From Chondrosia reniformis (taxonomy: Eukaryota > Porifera > Demospongiae > Chondrillida > Chondrillidae): a DNA stretch of 64,000 bases. The notes under the pieces are model-generated. The model ran no database searches and had not been told where the DNA came from. It saw nothing but the letters and a program-made list of their open reading frames with translations. The stretch is from contig OX359201.1 of NCBI GenBank assembly GCA_947172415.1, positions 5,146,001-5,210,000 on the forward strand, read 5' to 3'. A program made the translations under genes and the position numbers. Positions 24,001 to 63,200 of the stretch are shown piece after piece (the stretch's first letter is position 1; each line of letters opens with the position of its first letter).

Positions 24001-27000
24001 GAGTGGTCGATAATCAGACATACTTTCCTGGAAGTGTGTTATCAGGGGAGTCTTCTGGCAGCACATCCCCAGACATTCCCTGAGTGAGGTCTGCGTTGAG
24101 GGGCATTGCCTTGACTGAGTGAATGTTGTTAGAGTCAACATTTTCACACAGAGCAGATAGAGACTCAAAGACCGGATGGCTCTTGTGTGTGAACAGACGA
24201 TCAGATCCCAAGCTGTTCCTCAATACTACACAACAATACACCATCAGTACACAACAATACACCATCAGTACACAACAATACGCCATCAGTACACAACAAT
24301 ACACCATCAATACACAACAATACACCATCAGTACACAACAATACACCATCAGTACACAAATATTTCAGGTGATTAAAGGATGTTTGCGTTACTTACTTTC
24401 CTCAGGTAGCAAATCAGGATACACCTTATCTAAAACATTTAGAAGTCTCCCTTCATCCACAAAGGGAAGAAGTGCCACTCCTTGCCATGCAAACTTCTTG
24501 CCATTAAGATCAATTTTAAAGTCAATGGGATAAAAATCTATAATTTCAGAGTCCTACCAAGAGAAACAATTCAGATAAATTACTATATAATAAATAAAAT
24601 ATATAATATAGAAACTAATAGGGTCATTGGTCCAGAATCCCTCTAATTCCTGAAGGATCTAGTCAAACATACGTATTTCTAAGGTCAATAGAGAGGAAGG
24701 AACCTTTCACTATCTTGTACAACGCATCTCTGTCACAATCCAGTGAGGTCAGTATTTTACAATATTCTATCTACTAATATGAAGCGTGTTCAATTTTGGG
24801 CTAGTGTAATTATAGAGTTTTTGCATCAATATTTGGAACAATGGAAATTCCAGATACTTAGCTGATCAGGATCCATATTAATCACTTTGAAATTTCTCGT
24901 AAATCCCAAAATAATATTTTATGTATCGGATAAGGGATCATAGCAAAGGATACACATACGTACATGCATGTACTGTATATATGTAAATGTTGACATAAAT
25001 ATACTAAATTTGTGACTAACAGGCTCAACCATAAGTTTTCTCCACGAGGGGGGAAGGAAGTAGGAACTACCACCTGGAAATACACTCATTAACTGTTCTA
25101 GCGGCTTAAACTGTGGAAACAGAATATATCATTAGATTAAAAATTATTAATCATGTTGTTAAATTAAAAAATAGCTCACAGGTGTTGTCTTTTCCTTAAA
25201 AGTATTATCTATTTTGTCAATGCCAACGAAATCTGATGCAAATGGTGCGTAATGGAAGGGATAGTACCATTTCCAAGAAGGACAGCCCTGTGGAGGTACA
25301 GAGAAATAAGTATAGGATGGACAGTTCTGTGGAGGTACAGAGAAATAAGTATAGGATGGACAGTTCTGTGGAGGTACAGAGTAATAAGTATAGGATGGAC
25401 AGTTCTGTGGAGGTACAGAGAAATAAGTATAGGACGGATGGAGTAAAGATGAATATATGATAGGCATAAATATCCACATAGCAACCAAGAAGAAGTCAGT
25501 TAATCAAATTATAAGAAATTAGCAGTATGCTAGTACCCAACAGAGGACCCTACCTGATAGTAGTATGCTAGTACCCAACAGAGGACCCTACCTGATAGTA
25601 GTATGCTAGTACCCAACAGAGGAACCTACCTGATAGTAGTATGCTAGTACCCAACAGAGGAACCTACCTGATAGTAGTACGCTAGTACCCAACAGAGGAC
25701 CCTACCTGATAGTAGTATGCTAGTACCCAACAGAGGAACCTACCTGATAGTAGTATGCTAGTACCCAACAGAGGAACCTACCTGATAGTAGTATGCTAGT
25801 ACCCAACAGAGGAACCTACCTGATAGTAGTATGCTAGTACCCAACAGAGGAACCTACCTGATAGTAGTATGCTAGTACCCAACAGAGGAACCTACCTGAT
25901 AGTAGTATGCTAGTACCCAACAGAGGAACCTACCTGATAGTAGTATGCTAGTACCCAACAGAGGACCCTACCTGATAGTAGTATGCTAGTACCCAACAGA
26001 GGAACCTACCTGATAGTAGTATGCTAGTACCCAACAGAGGAACCTACCTGATAGTAGTATGCTAGTACCCAACAGAGGAACCTACCTGATAGTAGTATGC
26101 TAGTACCCAACAGAGGAACCTACCTGATAGTAGTATGCTAGTACCCAACAGAGGAACCTACCTGATAGTAGTATGCTAGTACCCAACAGAGGACCCTACC
26201 TGATAGTAGTATGCTAGTACCCAACAGAGGAACCTACCTGATAGTAGTATGCTAGTACCCAACAGAGGAACCTACCTGATAGTAGTATGCTAGTACCCAA
26301 CAGAGGAACCTACCTGATAGTAGTATGCTAGTACCCAACAGAGGACCCTACCTGATAGTAGTATGCTAGTACCCAACAGAGGAACCTACCTGATAGTAGT
26401 ATGCTAGTACCCAACAGAGGAACCTACCTGATAGTAGTATGCTAGTACTCAACAGAGGAACCTACCTGATAGTAGTATGCTAGTACCCAACAGAGGAACC
26501 TACCTGATAGTAGTATGCTAGTACTCAACAGAGGAACCTACCTGATAGTAGTATGCTAGTACTCAACAGAGGAACCTACCTGATAGTAGTATGCTAGTAC
26601 CCAACAGAGGAACCTACCTGATAGTAGTATGCTAGTACCCAACAGAGGAACCTACCTGATAGTAGTATGCTAGTACCCAACAGAGGAACCTACCTGATAG
26701 TAGTATGCTAGTACCCAACAGAGGACCCTACCTCATAGTAGTATGCTAGTACCCAACAGAGGAACCTACCTCATAGTAGTATGCTAGTACCCAACAGAGG
26801 AACCTACCTGATAGTAGTATGCTAGTACCCAACAGAGGAACCTACCTGATAGCAGTATGCTAGTACCCAACAGAGGAACCTACCTGATAGTAGTATGCTA
26901 GTACTCAACAGAGGAACCTACCTGATAGTAGTATGCTAGTACTCAACAGAGGAACCTACCTGATAGTAGTATGCTAGTACTCAACAGAGGAACCTACCTG

Positions 27001-30000
27001 ATAGTAGTATGCTAGTACCCAACAGAGGAACCTACCTGATAGTAGTATGCTAGTACCCAACAGAGGACCCTACCTGATAGTAGTATGCTAGTACCCAACA
27101 GAGGAACCTACCTGATAGTAGTATGCTAGTACCCAACAGAGGACCCTACCTCATAGTAGTATGCTAGTACCCAACAGAGGAACCTACCTGATAGTAGTAT
27201 GCTAGTACCCAACAGAGGAACCTACCTGATAGTAGTATGCTAGTACCCAACAGAGGAACCTACCTGATAGTAGTATGCTAGTACCCAACAGAGGAACCTA
27301 CCTGATAGTAGTATGCTAGTACCCAACAGAGGACCCTACCTGATAGTAGTATGCTAGTACCCAACAGAGGAACCTACCTGATAGTAGTATGCTAGTACCC
27401 AACAGAGGAACCTACCTGATAGTAGTATGCTAGTACCCAACAGAGGAACCTACCTGATAGTAGTATGCTAGTACCCAACAGAGGAACCTACCTGATAGTA
27501 GTATGCTAGTACCCAACAGAGGAACCTACCTGATAGTAGTACGCTAGTACCCAACAGAGGAACTTACCTCATAGTAGTATGCTAGTACCCAACAGAGGAA
27601 CCTACCTGATAGTAGTATGCTAGTACCCAACAGAGGACCCTACCTGATAGTAGTATGCTAGTACCCAACAGAGGAACCTACCTGATAGTAGTATGCTAGT
27701 ACCCAACAGAGGACCCTACCTGATAGTAGTATGCTAGTACCCAACAGAGGACCCTACCTGATAGTAGTATGCTAGTACCCAACAGAGGAACCTACCTGAT
27801 AGTAGTATGCTAGTACCCAACAGAGGAACCTACCTGATAGTAGTACGCTAGTACCCAACAGAGGAACCTACCTGATAGTAGTATGCTAGTACTCAACAGA
27901 GGAACCTACCTGATAGTAGTATGCTAGTACCCAACAGAGGAACCTACCTGATAGTAGTATGCTAGTACCCAACAGAGGAACCTACCTGATAGTAGTATGC
28001 TAGTACCCAACAGAGGAACCTACCTGATAGTAGTATGCTAGTACCCAACAGAGGAACCTACCTGATAGTAGTATGCTAGTACCCAACAGAGGAACCTACC
28101 TGATAGTAGTATGCTAGTACCCAACAGAGGAACCTACCTGATAGTAGTATGCTAGTACCCAACAGAGGAACCTACCTGATAGTAGTATGCTAGTACCCAA
28201 CAGAGGAACCTACCTGATAGTAGTATGCTAGTACCCAACAGAGGACCCTACCTGATAGCAGTATGCTAGTACCCAACAGAGGAACCTACCTGATAGTAGT
28301 ATGCTAGTACCCAACAGAGGAACCTACCTGATAGTAGTATGCTAGTACCCAACAGAGTCCTCTTGTGTAAGCCTCTACAACTCTTTTTCTAAAGTCACTT
28401 GTAACTTTTACTTCAAACTTATTATTATAATATCTTTCCTTCCATCCCTCTTCCCATAGCCTGTAAGGAAAGAGATACGTGACACATTAGCATCAAAAGC
28501 AAGTTCCACTATCCTAATCTTACTTCACATCATCTTCCACTTCTTCGTCACTATCTACTGCTTCATTTGAGGAAGGTGGAGGACGCTTTCTAAAGTTACC
28601 CTGCGACTCCAATGAAGGAGTGCTCTTACTGTGATGAACATGATCTTTACTGTCTTGGTCCATCCTCAACCAATTTCTCAGGTCAACAGCTGCCTCCTTG
28701 TTTGCGTCATGCTGCTCTTTCATGCTGGATATCCTAGCCTTGTATGCCTCCTGCCTGATACCTCTACCAGTGGCAGAACCACTCGGGCCACCTGGACCTA
28801 TCGGCTGACAGGAAGGTAAGACTCATTACAAACATTCCACTAAAGCACAAGGAAGAAGGGAAAATCCCAGGCATACTTACAGAAGTAGGAGCCTAAGGCC
28901 CATATGTACTTTTGAATCTGGCTTAATATTTACATGTTTGTATATGTACGTATGTACATATACATATAAGGGGGCCAATTGAGTTGGAAGTTGAGAATCT
29001 GTAACTGAATCAGGTAATGGTATATATATGTCTGAACCCGGGCTTATATTGGAGACTGGGCTTGTACAAGAGACTGGGTTTTTATTTTTCAACCCTTCAA
29101 TTCATATTGGTAAATCAACTTTGTTGAGACAATTTCCACATAAGCTACTGTATGTATAGAGACCAGCATGTTTGATAAGTATGAATATCATAAGTACTTT
29201 AATAGTGTGTCAGTGGGCTTATATTGGGGACTGGTCTTCTATTTTTTTGATAACTCATAAAGGTGGGCTTCTATTAGAGGCCTGGCTTATATTAGAGATA
29301 ATACGGTATACAGTATGTAGGTACATGTAACACTTAATACTAACCACTGCAGCTGCAGAGCCTTCTCTTGGGACCCAGCTGGGACTGATATACTCATTCT
29401 CCTAACAAGTAGGAACAGTAGCTCCTTCATAGATCAACATACTCTGTATACTGTATATAGCATAGGTGACCTCTTGTATGGGAAATTAAGTGTCACATGA
29501 TTCAAGTACATCTACTGCAGCACCAAGCTTAAATATATTCATTTGTAAATGAACACTACTAAAGTTGTTCCAGATATAGAAAACCTGCCAAACCATCCAA
29601 GGGACCGAGGTCTCATCTTGGCTGGGGGATGAACGTTCTATTAAAAATGGCAACCAGTGATTGCCTCCCAGTCATCTAAATACATATGTATAGGGGAAAC
29701 CCGCAAAAGAACCACAGATGCTGTTTGGCCCTCCTTAGGGCCCATCAGTGTGGTATACCTTTCCGATGGTGAGTTTGGATGACTATCTTTAACTTATTAA
29801 TCCACCACAAGTAAAATACTTGTAGTTTCATAGCAAGTAAAGATGGAGGCTGCAGTCTGCAAGCGTGACTGAGTGCTCACAATATTGTTCTAGATAAGAG
29901 TCTGGTTGCTACGTAGTTTCTATGTAAACGAACCAGTTTTTGTCTCTTTTTTCTTTCTTTCTGTCTTCGTCTCATTTCCAGTTCATTCTCCCTTCTCATC

Positions 30001-33000: not shown

Positions 33001-36000
33001 ATAAATTGCATCTCTAGACATTCAAAAGACTAAAGATGAACCATCTAAAAGATATGTTTGATGCAGTTAGAAGAATCCTTATCATCTAGTCTTTGCCTAT
33101 ACATAAGTAAACCAAACGTTTGCTACATAAGTGGCACTATAGACTGTAAACATCACACAACAAGTGATCTACAGATACCCTCTAATCTAATCACACAGGA
33201 CATCGAGAAGACACAGATATGCACTGAGAGCTTACCATCAGCTCCATAGAGACAGTGGTGAGTGTTAGGATCATGGCCTGGAGAACCTGCAGCAAACACA
33301 AGTCACAGGTTACTCAATATCTCAACGACATTTAATGGTGTGATTATCATTTCAATTAGTCATACGTACGTATGAGTTATATATTACATGTCCAAGCAGG
33401 GCATAAGAATAAAGATAAGATTATTGTAGAATAGACAAAATATCTAGGAAAATGGTGTATTAGATTGCTCATGAACTGGTACAGGATTCCCAAATGGTCA
33501 ACAAGAAGACAAAGTTTCCCAAGGTTACTGATGAAGGGTGGAATTCCCAGAAACAGCTGTCTGACCCAGTGGAGAAGAAGAGAAAGAGGAGGAGAAAACT
33601 CTTGTATCCTCATCCAAAGCTATTCACAATAATATTAATGTATTGGTCAGTTAGGAAAAGCTAGACAGAAAGTGTGTTTCATATAGTTACATTACATGTC
33701 CAAGAGTAGAGCAGAAGAATAGAGAGAAGACTGTAGAATAGATGTAGTTATAAGATCGGCTTCAGTTAGAAAAGTGTGTGTAAAATAATAAATCCAGTGA
33801 TTATTCACTTCGCTGCTTCCTTATGAAGTCCATCACTTTATGTTCACCTTCTCCAGGCACATTGGCATCAGAAAGAATGACCTTTATCTTCTGCCAGGCA
33901 GGATCTTTGTTCATTCGATCATGAATGTAAAACCTCAGGCACTTGGCAAGACGAAACATAAATTCTGTTCCTGGGGTGATGCAGTTGCTATCAAAGTGTG
34001 AATCGGAGGCCTTCTCTGGAGGCAGATCGCAACCTAAAGAACAAGAAGAAATAGTTTTGCAAAACTAATAAGCAATAAGTGGCAGCTGAAAAGGATTCCT
34101 TGCAGTGGCAACCTGTTAAAGGTTTAGGCACACCAATAAATTACGTGTTTGCTGAATGCTCTACCTATGAGGAGTGACACATTGCATGAATTTGTCGAGT
34201 ATAAATTGAAATAACGTTTGCTTTTCCAAAAAAACTTTGGTCACATTTTCATGTAGTGATAAAGATATTTAAAAACACTTCTGAGGTCTGTAGAATCCTT
34301 CCTAGTGCACAATACACTGAGCCAATATGGGTAAAATCCACTAGTTAGCATTCTACTAAAAATTTGTCAATTTGAATATTTTCAAGGGGGTGGGGGGATT
34401 TTAAAAAAGGAGGCAGATATCCCCTCTGTCCCCTAAAAGAAACCCGGAACAGGTAAAGCTTGCTAGCTATCTAGTTGGATAAAACTTACAGATCTACCAG
34501 TCACAGCTTAGCATTACACAAAATCTTGTATTTTCAAGAGCATAGGACAGGAATATTTGTTTTATTGATCTGAAACTCAGGTGAGAAAATGTTCCATCAT
34601 GCATACTTAAGAGAGGCTTCATACGTTAGTACATTTCCATATCCGCATATGATAAGGACAGACGCTCTTATATATAGACCAACGCTCTTATATATAGACC
34701 AACATTTGGTCTCCAATGTGAACCAGAGGAGGGAATATAACATCTGTGTAGCAACTCTGTCTAAATGTGATTGTACCTGCAGCTGCCATCTCCTCTCTCC
34801 TGTTCTTCATCGCTTCCTTCTTCTCTCTACTCTCCTTTGAAGCTCTAAACCTTCTTGACCGCTGCTGGTTCATCTTAGCTCTCGGAGCCTAAGGGAGATT
34901 GTGCAATAACCATAATAATGTCACATAGCCCTTGGAGCCTAAGGGAGATTGTGCAATAACTACATTAATGCCACTACGTATATAGCCCTTGGAGCCTAAA
35001 GGGTGATTGTGCAATAATATCAGGGTATTACACAACTGTACTTACAACTCCATCTATTGCCATATATAGCAGCTTCCTAGGTCTGATAATATTAAAGATC
35101 CTATCAATGTAGTCAAAGATGGCCAACATCATTTCATCCTCATTAGCTGGAGCAGGTCTGTTCATACAGAAGAGAAGCAGATGTAATCACACGAGTACTG
35201 GAACAGAACCACTCAATCTAATGTGTGCAGTGCGCCAGTGCTTATAAGGAGAAAGGATCTGCAACAATGAAAACTTAAATGGCACTTGTGTAGAGTTACG
35301 TATGTACGTAAGCTGTCTGGTTCTCAGTACTCAGTTCAAATTACTTATATACTGATTTACTTTAATACTAAACCTTTCCGTATAAAATGTACGTATAATA
35401 TCCAATATAAAACATCAATTTTTGGGTGCATGCATTACAAGATTGCACAACTCCTCTCATACAAAGTACAAAAGTGTAGCAGTCAGTGGTTACGTATATA
35501 CGTATATACTGCATGAACTACAGTATTAAATAGGCTTGCTTAATTATTTTCTGAAATAAGTTTTGCATTCAACATTTCAACTGTTGCTAAGGTCTTCCAC
35601 AGCAAAGTTCAAACAGAGTCATATACAAAGATAAATCTCTGTATACGTATAAGTTACTGATGAAGGGTGGAATTCCCAGAACAGCTGTCTGGCCCAGTAG
35701 AAAAGGAAAGATAAATTGATATGCAAATACAAAGCTCTCTAGGTTTCCTAAGTAGTATAAATCTAGGAAAATCTAGGAAAATCTAGGAAATCTAGGAATA
35801 CAGTCTAGTCTACGTAAGGATTCCTTTGTCTCAATATGATGCCAACCAGGTCTAAAGGAAAATGTTATAAAAAAACATTTTCTTGTTAAATTGCTCCATC
35901 ATTTAAATGGTAAATAATTTTAAAAGCATACATTTTAGTTTACTGATGTTACAGAACTGGACCCCAGTGGTGAGAAATTACTAACTTGTCTTCTGGGTGA

Positions 36001-37441
36001 CAACAAGGATGTATAATTCCATTCATGTCAAGGTAGAGGTTATCAAACTCCACACTGTTAGGGTTGGGCAGGGTGGCATCAACAGGAATAACCTCGCCAT
36101 CTACACAATTCCTCTGGAAGAGAAAATAGTCCGATCAATACATAAGAAACAATAAATAAACAAATTTCTTGAGTAACTAAAGTGTATTTTGTTGTTTGGT
36201 GTTGGCTTGGCAACATTTATATTTATGGTAACCAGAAGGAAAGCAATGATGACATCAGCATCTGATTACTACTATTTCATTAGGACCAATAATGACTATA
36301 TGTTATGTGTAGGCAAGCTTATGTCATATGGACAATAGCAAATGAAAAGTTAGTGAACTAAGGACCTTTTCATATGACTATCCTCTTCTTAATTGTTCCA
36401 TTAGTTAAATAGAAATTATTAGTAATAAACAATGGAAGTGTGTAAAGAAGTGGTTGAAGGAAAAGTGAAAGGAAAACAGCCTCGAGGAAGACCAGGGACA
36501 AGACGGATAGACAATTTTAAATTAAGTGGTCACCTCTGAATTAGGGTCAGTTCTTAAAGTCCTGGCGAGAATTGCATATATACTGATAGACCTTATAATA
36601 AGGACAAGTTCAGCTGGCCCAAGCTGACCACATTAGACATGTTTCACTGTACATATGTTCAGCACATTTATTTCACATTGTTATAATTAATAATGACCAC
36701 TATATGCACAATGCATCTATATAACTTACAACATATCTTAATAAATAATTAGGTCAGATTTCCAATAATTACACGTGAGCCAAGGATTCACAGAAGATCA
36801 AGATAAAGAAAAAGACAAAGACTCCCAGGATCACTGATGAAGGGTGGAATTCCCAGAAACAGCTGTCTGACCCAGTGGAGAAGAAGATGAAAGAAGGGAA
36901 AAGAAGGAAGAAAAGACTCCTGTATCTTCATCCAAAGCTCTCTTCAGGTTTAGTTCCCCTATAGGCTCTTTTACAAAATAGGCATAGCATATAGGAAAAT
37001 GGTATATTAGACATTTCATGTATACATAATCTCATATATAGCCCAGCGCCTGCTATATCTCACCTCTTTTTATGACTTATATCTATGTAAGGGAAATGGT
37101 CGAAACATCCGACAAGGGGATCGAACCAAAAACTGTTTTTTTGATGCTTAAAGAGCCTTTCGAAGATATACAAAGTGTTATCCACAAAGCTTGTTCTTTG
37201 ATAAGATTCGGTCATCTTATATATCTGTATATGCTTAGCGCTCTAAATTTTAAACGTATAATACACGTGTATTACAAGGCGAAATGGTGTCGAAAATATA
37301 AATTCTGATTGCGACCACACCAACTGAGAACCAAATCTATAGTTTGAGGCACGTACGCCTAAAACTGACCTCTTCGTTACAGGGTACAAGAATTGAACTA
37401 TACTTCTTTGAAAGCCATCTGAAAAAGGCTGGAACACCCAT
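21031..37441 (-). CDS. XRN2: XRN2/Rat1 nuclear 5'-3' exoribonuclease, complete, 23 exons
   Basis: Exons, 5' to 3' on the minus strand: 37370-37441, 35986-36113, 35046-35157, 34777-34888, 33809-34033, 33236-33286, 32457-32614, 32251-32322, 31474-31527, 30944-31081, 30548-30605, 29913-30031, 29345-29401, 28524-28804, 28328-28460, 25180-25287, 25021-25110, 24397-24553, 24024-24225, 23341-23397, 22625-22693, 21660-22084, 21031-21302. Phases close to 3,150 nt (1,049 aa). Hallmarks in order: [11 protein letters not shown] start, [58 protein letters not shown], a zinc knuckle C-X2-C-X4-H-X4-C near residues 263-276, [40 protein letters not shown] and [13 protein letters not shown]. The tail is Gln/Asn/Gly/Arg-rich. 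The zinc knuckle and the length favour XRN2 over XRN1. The family degrades 5'-monophosphate RNA in transcription termination and rRNA processing. The donor of exon 12 is uncertain (29913 or 29934, both in phase). Confidence 0.96.
22258..22445. mobile_element. MITE-like element in XRN2 intron
   Basis: Short inverse segments AAATTTGACGG at the left and CCGTCAAATT at the right bracket about 150 bp. AAATTTGGCAG and CTGCCAAACCG repeat the pattern inside. No coding capacity. The boundaries are approximate. Confidence 0.45.
22981..23071. mobile_element. Near-perfect 40-bp palindrome
   Basis: The left arm starts TATACCACACTCAAGTGTGA and ends GATATCTGCCCT. After a 10-base loop (23021-23030) the right arm repeats it in reverse with very few mismatches, ending ACACTTGAGTGTGGTATA. 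TA flanks both ends, as expected for a TA-target MITE. The stem would be about 40 bp in RNA or single-stranded DNA. Confidence 0.7.
23089..23325. repeat. 65-bp tandem repeat, about 3.5 copies
   Basis: Each unit contains TTGAACATATATCC and AACATACGTAGACTC. The units at 23151, 23216 and 23281 are almost identical. The array lies in the XRN2 intron between exons 20 and 21 and is intronic only. Confidence 0.8.
23675..23922. repeat. 36/39-bp tandem repeat, 7 copies
   Basis: The unit is built on GACTGTTTGACTGGCTAGTC followed by ATGTGACATCAGAATA. The first two copies are 39 bp, with an extra ATC; the later ones are 36 bp. The array is intronic in XRN2 (intron 19). Confidence 0.85.
24226..24360. repeat. 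21-bp tandem repeat abutting the XRN2 exon 19 acceptor
   Basis: Six or so copies of CACAACAATACACCATCAGTA (forward strand) start directly at the intron side of exon 19. Read on the gene strand, each unit ends GTTGTGTAC where the true acceptor reads GTTGTGTAG. The array therefore appears to have grown out of the 3' splice-site sequence but does not keep the AG. The 21-bp period leaves open frames on both strands, which are not genes. Confidence 0.75.
25288..25443 (-). repeat. 39-bp tandem repeat carrying acceptor-like CAG sites, XRN2 intron 15
   Basis: Four units start at 25288, 25327, 25366 and 25405. On the gene strand each ends TTTCTCTGTACCTCCACAG, and the first of them is the true acceptor of exon 16. 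The base after each CAG begins AACTGTCC, close to the exon's own GGCTGTCC, so the unit seems to span the 3' splice site. A period of 39 keeps the frame: use of an upstream CAG would add 13 residues ([13 protein letters not shown]) per unit without a stop. Confidence 0.85.
25521..28365 (-). repeat. 38-bp satellite, about 75 copies, made of the XRN2 exon 15 5' splice site
   Basis: On the forward strand the unit is CTGATAGTAGTATGCTAGTA followed by CCCAACAGAG and GAACCTAC. In the gene direction this is exactly the last 30 nt of exon 15 (coding CWVLAYYYQ with flanking bases) plus the first 8 nt of the intron (GTAGGTTC). The exon copy is 28328-28357, and the array runs unbroken from it into the intron. 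Copies differ only at a few recurrent positions (AACC/ACCC, TACCC/TACTC, CTGAT/CTCAT), so the array is young or homogenised. Each copy keeps a CAG|GTAGGT donor. Confidence 0.95.
30090..30418. repeat. 54-bp tandem repeat, about 6 copies
   Basis: The unit contains CTTAGACTGTACTACTTCAC and TCTCTGATTACACAATGTCA. Copies are almost identical and lie in XRN2 intron 11, directly followed by a reverse copy of the dispersed repeat (30424-30532). Confidence 0.85.
30750..30875. mobile_element. MITE-like element, short copy
   Basis: Carries GAGATGATTCATCTTTAGTC, TTTTGAGTGTCTAGAAAAGC and a CATTTCGACCCTAGGGGTC hairpin block, then CCATCTCAAAGATAA. Same family arms as 12381-12764 and 32835-33100; it lies in XRN2 intron 10. 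Confidence 0.55.
32835..33100. mobile_element. MITE with inverted arms, XRN2 intron 6
   Basis: The left arm (CTTCAAACGTCTTATCCTTG, GAGATGGTTCATCTTTAATC) is inverted at the right (GACTAAAGATGAACCATCTA, AAAAGATATGTTTGATGCAG). The centre has two facing hairpin blocks, one reading TGCTGAAGAAGACC and GGTTGAAACGTCC. No coding capacity. Confidence 0.65.
34881..35030 (-). repeat. Triplicated acceptor region of XRN2 exon 4
   Basis: Three copies of a 50-57 bp segment start at 34881, 34931 and 34988 (forward). Each contains (C/T)GGAGCCTAAGGGAGATTGTG followed by CAATAA. The first copy includes the first bases of exon 4 and its CTTAG acceptor, so the unit spans the 3' splice site. The other two lie inside the 157-bp intron 3 and keep TTAG acceptor-like sites. 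Confidence 0.8.
36530..36660. mobile_element. Fragment of a DNA-transposon-like repeat
   Basis: Contains GTGGTCACCTCTGAATTAGG, GGCCCAAGCTGACCACATTA and GACATGTTTCACTGTACA. Parallel segments lie at 52782-53035 (ACAGTAAAGCCTGTGTGAGC at its left, AGGCCAAGTTCAGCTGGTTC near its right), so both are copies of one element. Confidence 0.45.
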
Positions 37442-38158: not shown

Positions 38159-41100
38159 ATGGCAACGCTGACACTCCGAATAAACATTTCAAAAAGTAAC
38201 ACACAGAAGATGATGCAGGTACTTCAAGTTTATATTGAATATCTGGTACCCTATCTCTACCATGCACCTCTCTGTCCTGGCCATGTACCTCTCTGTCCTG
38301 GCCATGTACCTCTCTGTCCTGGCCATGTACCTCTCTGTCCTGGCCATGTACCTCTCTGTCCTGGCCATGTACCTCTCTGTCCTGGCCATGCACCTCTCTG
38401 TCCTGGCCATGCACCTCTCTGTCCTGGCCATGTACCTCTCTGTCCTGGCCATGCACCTCTCTGTCCTGGCCATGCACCTCTCTGTCCTGGCCATGCACCT
38501 CTCTGTCCTTGCCATGCACCTCTCTGTCCTGGCCATGCACCTCTCTGTCCTGGCCATGCACCTCTCTGTCCTGGCCATGTACCTCTCTGTCCTTGCCATG
38601 CACCTCTCTGTCCTTGTCATGCACCTCTCTGTCCTGGCCATGTACCTCTCTGTCCTGGCCATGCACCTCTCTGTCCTGGCCATGCACCTCTCTGTCCTGG
38701 CCATGTACCTCTCTGTCCTGGCCATGTACCTCTCTGTCCTGGCCATGTACCTCTCTGTCCTGGCCCTGTACCTCTCTGACCTGGCCATGTACCTCTCTGT
38801 CCTTGTCATGCACCTCTCTGCCCTGGCCATGTACCTCTCTGCCCTGGCCATGTACCTCTCTGTCCTGGCCATGTACCTCTCTGTCCTGGCCATGTACCTC
38901 TCTGTCCTGGCCATGCACCTCTCTGTCCTGGCCATGTACCTCTCTGTCCTGGCCCTGTACCTCTCTGACCTGGCCATGTACCTCTCTGTCCTGGCCCTGT
39001 ACCTCTCTGTCCTGGCCATGTACCTCTCTGTCCTGGCCATGTACCTCTCTGTCCTGGCCATGTACCTCTCTGTCCTGGCCATGTACCTCTTAGGTATACC
39101 AATAACCTTGATAATACATATGTGTTAAACTGCAATTTGTTCCATCAAGTCAAAATATGTTCTGTGCTTCTATCAGTTATCATCATAAAAAGTTAGATTT
39201 GTAGCTGTGTTAATGATCCAGTTTTTTAAGATTGGAGGAATCCTACAAGTATAAAGCCATTAGTTTGATTGCTTGAGAAAGCCTTCTTTGCAGGGGCTAC
39301 CATAATACTTTCTCTAGATGACTGCACCATGTAAATATCTACCTCATTTTAGAAGTCACTGAGACAAATCAATATCTACCTCAATAGTTACATTCCTATT
39401 CCTTTAATTCACTGTCTGATTGGCTAAAGTAACTAATTAAATACTTTTGTGTAATCTCATTACAAAGCCCAAAAAGAGATGACAACATAAAAATGGATTT
39501 GATGTTGCAACGTCTATAATCTAGTAGTTATTATAAATTCATTTTGCAAGATTTCAGAAGTAATTAAGGACATACTTTGAGCTACAGGCTTCACTAAAGA
39601 AGCAGTTCTACGTACATGAAAAAAGTAATTAAATTCTCTCTTCACCATTCATGGTATTTAGGTATATAAATAATTTATTTATTTATTGATTATTGTAATG
39701 TGCCATTCCTTTGTGATATTGAAACCCAGAGAGAGAACTCACATTATGACATATATATATGATAATTTCCTGTATTCTAGGCAACCATTTTAATTAGTGG
39801 GTTATGACATCATCTGAAGGGTATGTGAGCTGATTACCATATTTGGTCATAATTTCAATACGTAAACTAAATACCATTGCTATTAAATCTTAAAGGATGT
39901 TTTTATTCCATATTCCAGCAGGGTCTGTTGTAAAGGAAGGCATCTATATATGTTAGCAGTTAGGTCCAATATTGATATTTAACAACATTCTGCTTCCATT
40001 AAACCAAAAATTAGACACAAATTTTGTATACTGAAAAAAGCATTAATTTCATTATGCATACACTAATGAAGTTATTAATGTAACATGTGTTTTAATTTTG
40101 GTCAATTAGGTTTATGTATGTATTCGTACAGTTAATACAGTTTTGCATGCAAAATTTATCAGTTCTTGTTTGCAATGTTACAGTATTGTGCTCATTCAGC
40201 AAAATGGAAAATCTCATCAATTTCATTGGCAACTAGTCAGTAGTGTATATACAGAAAAGAATAGTCTAAATTACGCAATGTTCTGTTTATATTGAGTGCA
40301 TACTTACATATGTATGTATAGGGGTTGGACGGTTCTTTCTTTATCTACTCTGGCCAGACAAGTATTTCTTGGAATTCCTCCCTTCCCCAGTGACCTCAGT
40401 CACATTGGTATTGTCTTCAAATTATGCTATTTTTGGGCTTATGTCTGTGTGTTTGCATTTATGTGGTTACAGACAAAGATTCTTTTAGAAATACCACAAA
40501 ATACAGTGTAGTAACATATTGAGGGAATAGGCTAGTTCAAGGTGTTTGTTTTCTGTTAACATTTGGCAAATTTGGCTTTCATCAAGAGAGAAAACATCCT
40601 TTTGAGAAGGGGTTAAATGCCCAAACATAGTTCATTAGTTATAGGTTAGTTAGTTAGAAAAAATATCTTTAAGAGGGGGTGAAATGGCCAAATGTAGTTA
40701 CTGATTAGTTAGTTTGGAGAAATATCTTTAAGAGGCGGTAAGTGGCCAAATGTAGTTACTGATTAGTTAGTTTGGAGAAATATCTTTAAGAGGGGGAAAA
40801 TGGCCAAAAAGCATCACTAGTCATTGGTTGGTTTTTAAATGTGTAACGTGTGACATGCCCTAATGGATGTACATGAAAAATCTAAGATACCATTTACCAG
40901 AGAGCTTTAGATGAAGATACAGTAGTCTTTTCTTCCTTCTTTTCCCTTCTTTAATTTTCTTCTCCACTGGGTCAGACAGCCGTTTCTGGGAATTCCACCC
41001 TTCATCAGTGATCCTGGGAGTCTTTGTCTTTTTCTTTATCTTGATCTTCTGTGAATCCTTGACTCACTATGCTAAATCTAGGGGCCTTATATACACTATT

Positions 41101-60274: not shown

Positions 60275-63200
60275 CCATTCACTCCATCCATCCATCCATC
60301 CGTCCATCCATCTGTCCATCCATCCATTCACTCCACCCAACCATTCATCCATGAATGTATGTTTGTACAGCAATGCACGCAAGGTGGACACAAAGCCTCT
60401 CTTGACAGCTGTAAATGATGTAGTGGCCTTTGCTTCCTCTCCTGCCTTTGCCTCTGTTCCAGCAGTCATCGGTGAACAGGTTAGTGGAACCATACCTGAA
60501 TCAGGTGTTTGTTGTCTCCTACTTCACAAAGTACATGTATAGATAATCTGTCCACAGACAATCGTTTCTCAGAAAAAGATCATTCATCCTATATCTTTCT
60601 GCCATTTTGTACAAATGGATACTTTTTATGGCCCCATCACATATACATGTCTGTTGTAAATAGTAACTTCTGCAATTGAGTGACTTGTGATGGAATAAGA
60701 TTAAAGGTACATTCTCTAATGTACGTAAGTCTTTCCGATATGTAGGGCCGTACGTCCATGACACCCATACTATCAGCGGGCAAATCTGTAGTGTCTGCCA
60801 GCAAGAACCTCCTTGGTGCTATGAAAGGTCTTGTTGTTGAGCCGGGAGATAGTGAACTTTGGAAGAAGTTTCAAACTCATTCAAAGGCCCTCTCAGATGC
60901 CATGAAAGTCCTTTTAGGGGCAATCAAGTGAGTATTACTGAAATATCATAGAGAGGCAGTTAGTAAGTTCATATGCCAATTGGTTCATAAGATATACGTA
61001 TGTAACCAGTAGAGAAGAAGACAAGTAGAAGGAGAAAACTCTTTTATCTCTTTTAAAGCTCATGTTTGGTCAGTATACTAATTTTGTTAATCAATATACT
61101 AATATTTGTGGTTAGTATACTAATGTTGGCAGTCAGTATACTGATATTACAAAGGCTTAATGCTTTTCTTGGATGGCCAAGTTAAAGGATTTCACATTTT
61201 GTTGCAGAGAGAAGTCACCAGGACAAGCAGAATGTGAAGAAGCTATAGATGTCATCAACCAAGCCATTTCAGAGATAGATCGTGCCAGCATGGCGGTGCT
61301 CACTCGAACACTTACACCAGAAACCGCCTCCTCCTTGGACGACTATCAGGAGCAGATGTTGCATCATCTTGATGAAATAGAGAGTGTCATTGAACCACTG
61401 AATACTTCAGCTAAAAGCGAAGCAGAAACTTTGGGCCATAGAATCACTGATTTTGCAACCATTTTTCCTAAACTTGCTTCCATGGCGATAAGAACAGCAT
61501 CAAGAACTAAAGTTGAGCAACAGCAGAGTACACTCCTGGAACAGACAAAGACAGTTGCTGAATCAGCTTCACAAGTTGCCTTTGCCTGCAAATCATCTGG
61601 TGGCAATCCCAAGGTAACACCATCCACTCCATCACATACATACGTACACTCAAGGATTGCATAAGGTAACACATCCACTCCATCACATACATACGTACAC
61701 TCAAGGATTGCATAAGGTAACACATCCACTCCATCACATACATACGTACACTCAAGGATTGCATAAGGTAACACATCCACTCCATCACATACATACACAC
61801 AAGGATTGCATAAGGTAACACATCCACTCCATCACATACATACGTACACTCAAGGATTGCATAAGGTAACACATCCACTCCATCACATACATACGTACAC
61901 TCAAGGATTGCATAAGGTAACACATCCACTCCATCACATACATACGTACACTCAAGGATTGCATAAGGTAACACCATCCACTCCATCACATACATACATA
62001 CACTCAAGGATTGCATAAGGTAACACCATCCACTCCATCACATACATACGTACACTCAAGGATTGCATAAGGTAACACATCCACTCCATCACATGCATAC
62101 AAACAAAGATTGCATAGTCTCCTCTAACTTTGTGCTTTTGTTTAACAACTTTAGTCTAAAGAACATGACAAAGTGGACGAATCAGTGGAAATGATAAAAG
62201 AGGCTGTCACCGAACTGAAGGAGACTTTGGAGAAGGCCAGTAAAGATCTTGGTTTCATTAATCAAATGATTGAGAAGATCAATGAGGCCGCAAAGATGGT
62301 ATGTGTGTAGATACAGTACATTAGTAATCAGCTGTGTATTCAAAAACCATGGAAACCATTCCATGGTATCTGAAGTACCTTTTTGTAAATGTGTCATTGA
62401 TGAAATGGAGTCAAGCCATAAATATTGCTAATTACCTCCAAACATAGTATATGAAAATAGTAAAACAGTAAAAATTTTGTGGTGTATTTGAACAGTTTTA
62501 TCGGAGATGTATTTTTTTCTAATCACCAATTAAGCCGATAGCCACACTGTTGTTATTCATCTAAATATATTCAAAGATTTAGATTTATCTTTACATATAC
62601 ATAATGTGTATCTTTACATATACGTAATGTGTATCTTTACATATACGTAACATGTATATTTACATATACGTAACGTGTATATTTACATATACGTAATGTG
62701 TATATTTACATATACGTAATGTGTATATTTACATATATACGTATATATACATAGGTATCAAGTGGTGCTCCTGGCAGCGGAAATTTTACTTCTGCACACT
62801 CAGCTATGCTGGAAGCTAGCAAGAAAGTGGCCAAAAAGATACAAGAAGTGGTCAGTATAATAAGCCATGTATAACGTCCAGATGATGTGATGTCTTTTAC
62901 AGCACCTGCCCAATTGATATACGTTTGTATTGTGCAATCGATATACTCTTGTATTGTGCAATCGATATATATACTCTTGTATTATGCAATCAATATACTC
63001 TTGTATTGTGCAATCGATATATATACTCTTGTATTATGCAATCAATATACTCTTGTATTGTGCAATCGATATATGTACTCTTGTATCGTGCAATCGATAT
63101 ACTCGTATTGTGCAATCTACTGTATATACTCTAAAGGGCCAATTCCTATATCTACTAGGGTCAGCCAGGACTGGACCCAGCACAGGTTCCTGAAGAGGTT

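Follow-up and report, generated by a model that had tools for sequence, protein, structure and literature searches.

A putative boundary-spanning minisatellite sets out 74 near-equal donors in one XRN2 intron of the sponge Chondrosia reniformis

The window analyzed here, a stretch of 64,000 nucleotides from contig OX359201.1 of the sponge Chondrosia reniformis, carries on its minus strand the gene of the transcription-termination exonuclease XRN2, which tblastn with homologue proteins follows from a start codon at 37441 to ~21940 or beyond, and on its plus strand exons of talin. One intron of XRN2 is bordered at both ends by tandem repeats of its own splice sites. A ladder of donors (5' splice sites) occupies 25520..28357 on the minus strand, where Tandem Repeats Finder (TRF) reports a 38-bp unit in 74.7 copies with 74 GT donors, and a ladder of acceptors (3' splice sites) occupies 25280..25438 on the same strand (39-bp unit, 4.1 copies by TRF). 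Homology and sequence reading place the donor array as a boundary-spanning minisatellite, or “mirage”, in a sponge. We consider it, with a probability of about 0.72, to be incidental and locus-specific, and tolerated as the exon-proximal sites would be those used.

The XRN2 homologues come from a protein search (P0001 being 62% identical to the conceptual query), and the ends of the ladder intron were set by hand from the tblastn matches of P0001 and P0004 together with sequence reading. The ladder exon (28328..28460, minus strand, 133 nt) contributes its last 30 nt as copy 1 of the array and ends at a true donor placed by hand between 28328 and 28327 (minus strand); the next exon, also located by tblastn (25180..25287, minus strand, 108 nt), starts with GCPSWKWYY. 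Short minus-strand introns flank both exons on their outer sides, namely 28461..28523 upstream of the ladder exon (63 nt, the shortest modelled XRN2 intron) and 25111..25179 downstream of the acceptor-ladder exon (69 nt). An initial annotation of the window had called the ladder intron number 15; the intron is the same one, and its number is 14 or 15, with the stretch at ~29.95-28.82 kb left out of the gene model. None of the 120 listed homologues interrupts the protein junction between the exon at 28460-28328 and that opening at 25287, as established by regular expression for 119 of them and by eye for the last, P0036, in which the junction is kept with S for C before WVL.

In the sense (minus-strand) orientation the donor-ladder unit reads CTCTGTTGGGTACTAGCATACTACTATCAG followed by GTAGGTTC, the last 30 nt of the exon plus the first 8 nt of the intron, and copy 1 is the XRN2 exon end itself (TRF: period 38, 98% matches, score 5452). 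Both TRF and sequence reading confirm the array as initially annotated, of this composition and running on from the XRN2 exon. The “about 75 copies” of the donor given there fit the TRF copy number, but the last copy is partial and without a donor, leaving 74 in-register GT donors. Similarly, the assertion that every copy keeps CAG/GTAGGT is exact for 58 of the 74, while AG/GT is kept in 74/74; the variants are CAGGTAGGT (58), CAGGTAGGG (12), GAGGTAGGG (2), GAGGTAAGT (1) and GAGGTAGGT (1). Searched against the genome, 21 nt of the unit match exactly at 51 places, every one within the XRN2 array.

Assembly errors commonly arise at tandem arrays, so that an expanded or misassembled repeat has to be considered. 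The assembly, odChoReni1.1, is reported in excerpts of its genome paper as 14 chromosomes plus the mitochondrion, built from PacBio HiFi data (10.31 Gb, 0.80 million reads, QV 69.8), and RNA-seq ERR10177766 and an alternate haplotype, GCA_947172445.1, are named there for the species (PMC12181767); it amounts to 117,379,552 bases in 15 contigs. Reads of ~12.9 kb on average (our own division of 10.31 Gb by 0.80 million), the quality value of 69.8, and variant units scattered along the array instead of forming one repeated block all speak against such an error, which we find scarcely credible.

The constancy of the donor had been put forward as a hint of function, which the comparison of columns does not bear out. 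Six of the 38 columns of the unit vary, three of nine in the donor core and three of 29 elsewhere, and the core is no better conserved than the rest of the unit (Fisher p = 0.13, in a small test). Because the donor core varies in this proportion, the near-identity of the copies looks like recent homogenisation, not donor constraint. By our own codon reading, the exonic part of the unit holds four variable columns: one stop-making, two amino-acid-changing and one silent. The stop-making change (TGG to TGA) is carried by 7/74 copies and speaks against a role of the copies as exons, and the copies look free of coding constraint.

The acceptor ladder at the other end of the intron was absent from the initial annotation. 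Its 39-bp unit runs from a polypyrimidine stretch through CAG into 8 nt of the following exon; the copy with the real acceptor comes last and opens the exon at 25287 (CAG/GGC), and decoy acceptors would open exons at 25326, 25365 and 25404 (CAG/AAC, 3/3), with CAG present at 4/4 sites. The decoys are in frame and stop-free, and would add 13, 26 or 39 residues, one copy having Y for F. The outermost donor-acceptor pair defines a 3,040-nt intron and is the only pair giving the conserved protein, while the innermost pair would define one of 149 nt. In agreement with what had been proposed from the sequence, only the first donor, joined to the normal acceptor, gives the junction found throughout the homologues, and donors 2-74 joined to it run into an in-frame stop in 73/73 cases.

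As had also been anticipated, the spliceosome is presented with dozens of donors of almost equal strength: 58/74 of them, donor 1 included, form a U1 duplex of -11.8 kcal/mol and none a stronger one, and only one of the 18 modelled XRN2 donors (-12.4 kcal/mol) exceeds that value. Donor strength was therefore rejected as the selector of donor 1, which 57 decoys equal in U1 pairing. RNA structure as the selector is not supported by a local fold either, the probability of being unpaired amounting to 0.0006 for donor 1 and to a mean of 0.0005 for the other donors; a three-unit fold is no better than shuffles (-28.9 vs. -27.7, sd 3.5). Since neither strength nor predicted accessibility sets donor 1 apart, position should decide, if XRN2 protein is made.

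The ladder could also be read as a rheostat, in which transcripts spliced at decoy donors carry a stop and undergo nonsense-mediated decay, with array length setting the XRN2 level. All 73 decoy donors do give a stop, 57 of them being equal to donor 1 in U1 pairing, and the variable-number tandem repeat (VNTR) of human CBS, likewise a donor ladder, is reportedly associated with reduced enzyme activity, to go by the title of Lievers 2001. We nevertheless judge the rheostat unlikely: a stop within a frameshifted 38-nt unit is unremarkable, the donor core of the copies shows no excess conservation, similar ladders sit in the unrelated genes of talin and tyrosyl-tRNA synthetase (see below), and the mirages of amphioxus are said, in excerpts of the papers describing them, not to disturb splicing (PMC3087553; PMC3902484). 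An extended form, rather less likely still, would make the two-ended ladder a heritable, length-variable dial of XRN2, in which transcripts from inner donors are destroyed and the acceptor ladder adds variants longer by 13-39 residues; if true, individuals or cells with arrays of different length would differ in both the dose and the form of this transcription-termination exonuclease. The tuning of XRN2 output that the initial annotation had suggested is, in this sense, conceivable but not supported.

Two further functions were weighed. The units can be seen as 38-nt GT...AG blocks, so that splicing from donor 1 to an internal AG would regenerate the exon end and shorten the intron stepwise and harmlessly. 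Ratchet points of such recursive splicing carry AG/GT, and a recursive splice site is defined by a good polypyrimidine tract before it. The unit does end in ATCAG/GTAGGT, with AG/GT at 74/74 unit boundaries, but its AG is a poor acceptor (pyrimidine fraction of 0.56, below 17/18 modelled XRN2 acceptors), its longest pyrimidine run of 4 falls short of such a tract, and a single unit of 38 nt is below the shortest modelled intron of 63 nt, which two or more units would exceed; we regard stepwise removal as very improbable. Telescripting, in which the decoys would bind U1 and shield the 3-kb intron from premature polyadenylation, could draw on 74 U1-pairing sites within 2.8 kb. The donor core shows no constraint, and 44/55 arrays of a 260-kb genome sample carry no donor motif at a score threshold of 7, so that we give this explanation very little credence.

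Other arrays of the window also lie near splice sites. In XRN2, an array of ~50-bp units at 34876..35017 (minus strand, 2.6 copies, 83% matches) straddles an acceptor and takes in 13 nt of the exon that begins at 34888, and another at 24227..24359 (minus strand, 21 bp x 6.3) stops a single base before the intron ends at 24226. In talin, a donor ladder of ~51-bp units with 10 donors AAG/GTAAC lies at 61611..62100 (plus strand). The talin exon located by tblastn (61182..61613, plus strand) ends at the first donor of this ladder and is overlapped by it by 3 nt only, later donors leading to an in-frame stop in 9/9 cases; the next exon match starts from 62155. The open frame at 61161-61661 matches Pfam PF21865 (E 6.7e-46), and the protein match P0121 covers residues 1616-1759 here and 1760 onward in the next exon.

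The placement of arrays was assessed over the 18 introns modelled for XRN2 and the 43 gaps that separate the tblastn matches in talin, on 18 arrays with a unit of at least 15 bp and a TRF score of at least 150; the segment at ~29.95-28.82 kb and the intron at 25004-24554 (junction called in the wrong frame) were omitted. Four of these 18 arrays straddle a splice site, against 2.68 expected by random placement of the parent unit, the talin array just counting by its 3 nt of exon and XRN2 having been chosen because of its ladder. Thus, in XRN2 and talin the arrays appear neither drawn to splice sites (P>=4 = 0.27) nor purged from them (P<=4 = 0.89), 2/16 straddle a site when the ladder intron is taken out, and a placement bias toward splice sites was not supported. 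Besides these, a 21-bp array of 39.6 copies lies upstream of XRN2 at 38260-39090 of the window and is open across in two minus-strand frames. Open frames in numerous introns, among them those at ~36.9, 35.7, 33.6, 32.0, 30.5, 47.5 and 50.0 kb, share a similar stretch (e.g., WEFHPSSV), which by eye looks like a dispersed repeat family.

The genome is rich in such repeats: 116 TRF arrays were found in the 260-kb sample, their lengths summing to 34,648/260,000 bp (~13%). Among 55 arrays of this sample, scored with donor frequencies, 13, 11, 4, 2 and 1 units reached a best donor score of at least 6, 7, 8, 9 and 10, respectively. At the same thresholds, 40 letter-shuffled controls gave means of 9.9, 6.05, 3.9, 1.65 and 0.75 (maxima of 18, 11, 10, 4 and 3), and reversed units gave 12, 7, 5, 3 and 2; a donor-derived origin of minisatellites in general is not clearly supported by these 55 arrays. 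From genome-wide scans for tandem donor motifs, 22 arrays were examined, 18 as stretches of one array each and four from the scan for CAGGTAAGT. For one of the 22, that of tyrosyl-tRNA synthetase, a position at an exon end could be shown, the other 21 being without such a demonstration, and this 1/22 is no estimate of the frequency of exon-end ladders. An open frame of at least 30 codons reaches the first donor in nine of the first 18 arrays, and one of at least 28 codons in three of the last four; seven of those nine frames were compared with Pfam and three with the Protein Data Bank (PDB). The tyrosyl-tRNA synthetase exon was found by the PDB comparison and missed by Pfam. Its ladder (L034:827-1070, in G000:C1:3220400-3222000, plus strand) follows an exon ending in LLYPGLQ and has eight donors AG/GTGGGY in units of 34-35 bp; the query, ended at the first donor, aligns with the human enzyme as far as its own final residue (E 1.6e-17), the repeat beginning past the donor. 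Donor ladders are therefore seen in three conserved genes: XRN2, talin and tyrosyl-tRNA synthetase.

Among the other arrays, those built of the same units, of 31 and 33 bp, occur twice at a distance of ~24 kb (L020/L021 and L022/L023, C1 2.01-2.05 Mb), which suggests a recent segmental duplication. Two long open frames of 942 and 1,632 codons (L026-L028, C5 2.027-2.047 Mb) hold a 297-bp-period array, and possibly encode paralogous repeat-domain proteins.

The origin that we favor for the XRN2 ladders is an incidental one, in keeping with the abundance of arrays in this genome, their near-chance placement in XRN2 and talin, the similar donor ladders of talin and tyrosyl-tRNA synthetase, and the absence of visible coding or donor-core constraint in the copies. 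A 38-bp segment happening to span the exon-intron boundary would have been duplicated in tandem and would have grown into the intron, a separate 39-bp minisatellite would have done likewise over the acceptor, and the array would survive since splicing would take the outermost, exon-proximal sites. Use of these sites is proposed because the exons, of 133 and 108 nt, are small and each lies between a very short outer intron (63 and 69 nt, respectively) and the long inner intron with the arrays. Donor 1 is, moreover, the first to be transcribed, and U1 tethered to RNA polymerase II (Pol II) could keep hold of it. In human data, as given in excerpts of the source, equal competing sites follow the recognition unit, long flanking introns favoring those nearest to each other across the exon; of two identical CAG/guaagu donors in minigenes under exon definition, only the upstream one was used; the upstream bias of donors is stronger with a short upstream and a long downstream intron; and, for acceptors, the mirrored layout class mimics exon definition (PMC9225289). 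The ladder exon, preceded by a 63-nt intron, and the next exon, followed by one of 69 nt, match these last two layouts. Pol II-tethered U1 is also reported to hold the nascent upstream donor (PMC8316553, in excerpt). Most likely, then, the cell strongly favors the exon-proximal donor; which sites are used, and why, is inferred from splice boundaries known from homology and sequence and from human rules that sponges would be expected to follow.

Several observations weigh against an incidental, tolerated array. Competing human acceptors overall prefer the upstream 3' site in the excerpted data (PMC9225289), a preference that would favor a decoy acceptor in the XRN2 ladder, and intron definition would favor the innermost pair, whose 149 nt resemble the short introns of XRN2. 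Cryptic intronic donors are described as tethered too, and intron removal as not first come, first served (PMC8316553, in excerpt), so that tethering need not favor donor 1. All three decoy acceptors lack the +1 G (GG to AA), reflecting either selection against decoys or a single change that was inherited. Taken by itself, XRN2 has 3/7 arrays that straddle a splice site against ~1.1 expected (P>=3 = 0.083), a hint of an excess of straddling arrays in this gene. Genome-wide, three tandem CAGGTRNGT motifs occur at 530 places and the reversed motif at 293, and three tandem CAGGTAAGT motifs at 15 places and 5 reversed; these counts are not counts of arrays, as places overlap within arrays and one array gives many of them (~100 of the 530, on contigs 1-4 only, correspond to ~20 arrays by eye).

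The locus is a natural test case for splice-site choice: a single intron holds 74 near-equal donors and four similar acceptors, and the choice between its outermost (3,040 nt) and innermost (149 nt) pairs makes exon vs. intron definition testable outside bilaterians. Broadly, our results suggest that a sponge genome rich in minisatellites can tolerate those that span exon-intron boundaries.

The initial annotation knew of no described system of this kind, a statement that has to be withdrawn, as two have been reported. The mirages of amphioxus are tandemly duplicated exon-intron boundaries, affecting both 5' and 3' sites, in Adh3, the globins BflGb6 and BflGb9, PGBD5 and troponin C; according to excerpts of these papers, the mirages do not, to judge from RT-PCR, interfere with splicing, and that of Adh3 is somatically unstable (PMC3087553; PMC3902484). 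Like them, the sponge ladders are minisatellite-like repeats across an exon-intron boundary, and the XRN2 arrays share the defining traits: a tandem minisatellite, a boundary (placed by homology) that it spans, and AG/GT signals. In amphioxus many, not all, units carry AG/GT, the Adh3 units measure 10-72 bp, and the BflGb6 haplotypes have 6 and 3 units, compared with 74 donors in the sponge XRN2, whose pairing of a donor with an acceptor ladder in one intron is not described among the mirages in these excerpts, where two repeats are given for PGBD5 (PMC3087553; PMC3902484). The human CBS 31-bp VNTR, c.1444_1467+7(16_21), present in 16-21 copies, joins by its name 24 nt of exon end and 7 nt of intron start, each copy with a donor (PMC2630376; PMC1395315, in excerpt); the XRN2 unit likewise joins exon end and intron start, but with 30 + 8 nt, in 74.7 copies and in an unrelated gene, and the excerpted CBS text describes no acceptor ladder, unlike the situation in the sponge (PMC2630376). 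A second CBS variant, 844ins68, duplicates the intron 7/exon 8 junction, with the more distal site strongly favored; its sites are called donors in that source, although the cited Romano title speaks of 3' splice sites (PMC2630376, in excerpt). It is a single duplication, whereas XRN2 carries an array, and its distal-site preference was counted for exon-proximal use in XRN2. Ratchet sites share the back-to-back AG/GT, the XRN2 unit differing by its weak polypyrimidine tract and 38-nt spacing. Given the amphioxus mirages and the CBS VNTR, the sponge case joins an already described kind; among the papers listed from the open-licence literature, covered mostly at title and abstract level, we found no report from a sponge, no donor ladder this large and none at both intron ends, and it is in the unusually large ladder, its sponge host and the repeats at either end of the intron that the present case stands apart from them.

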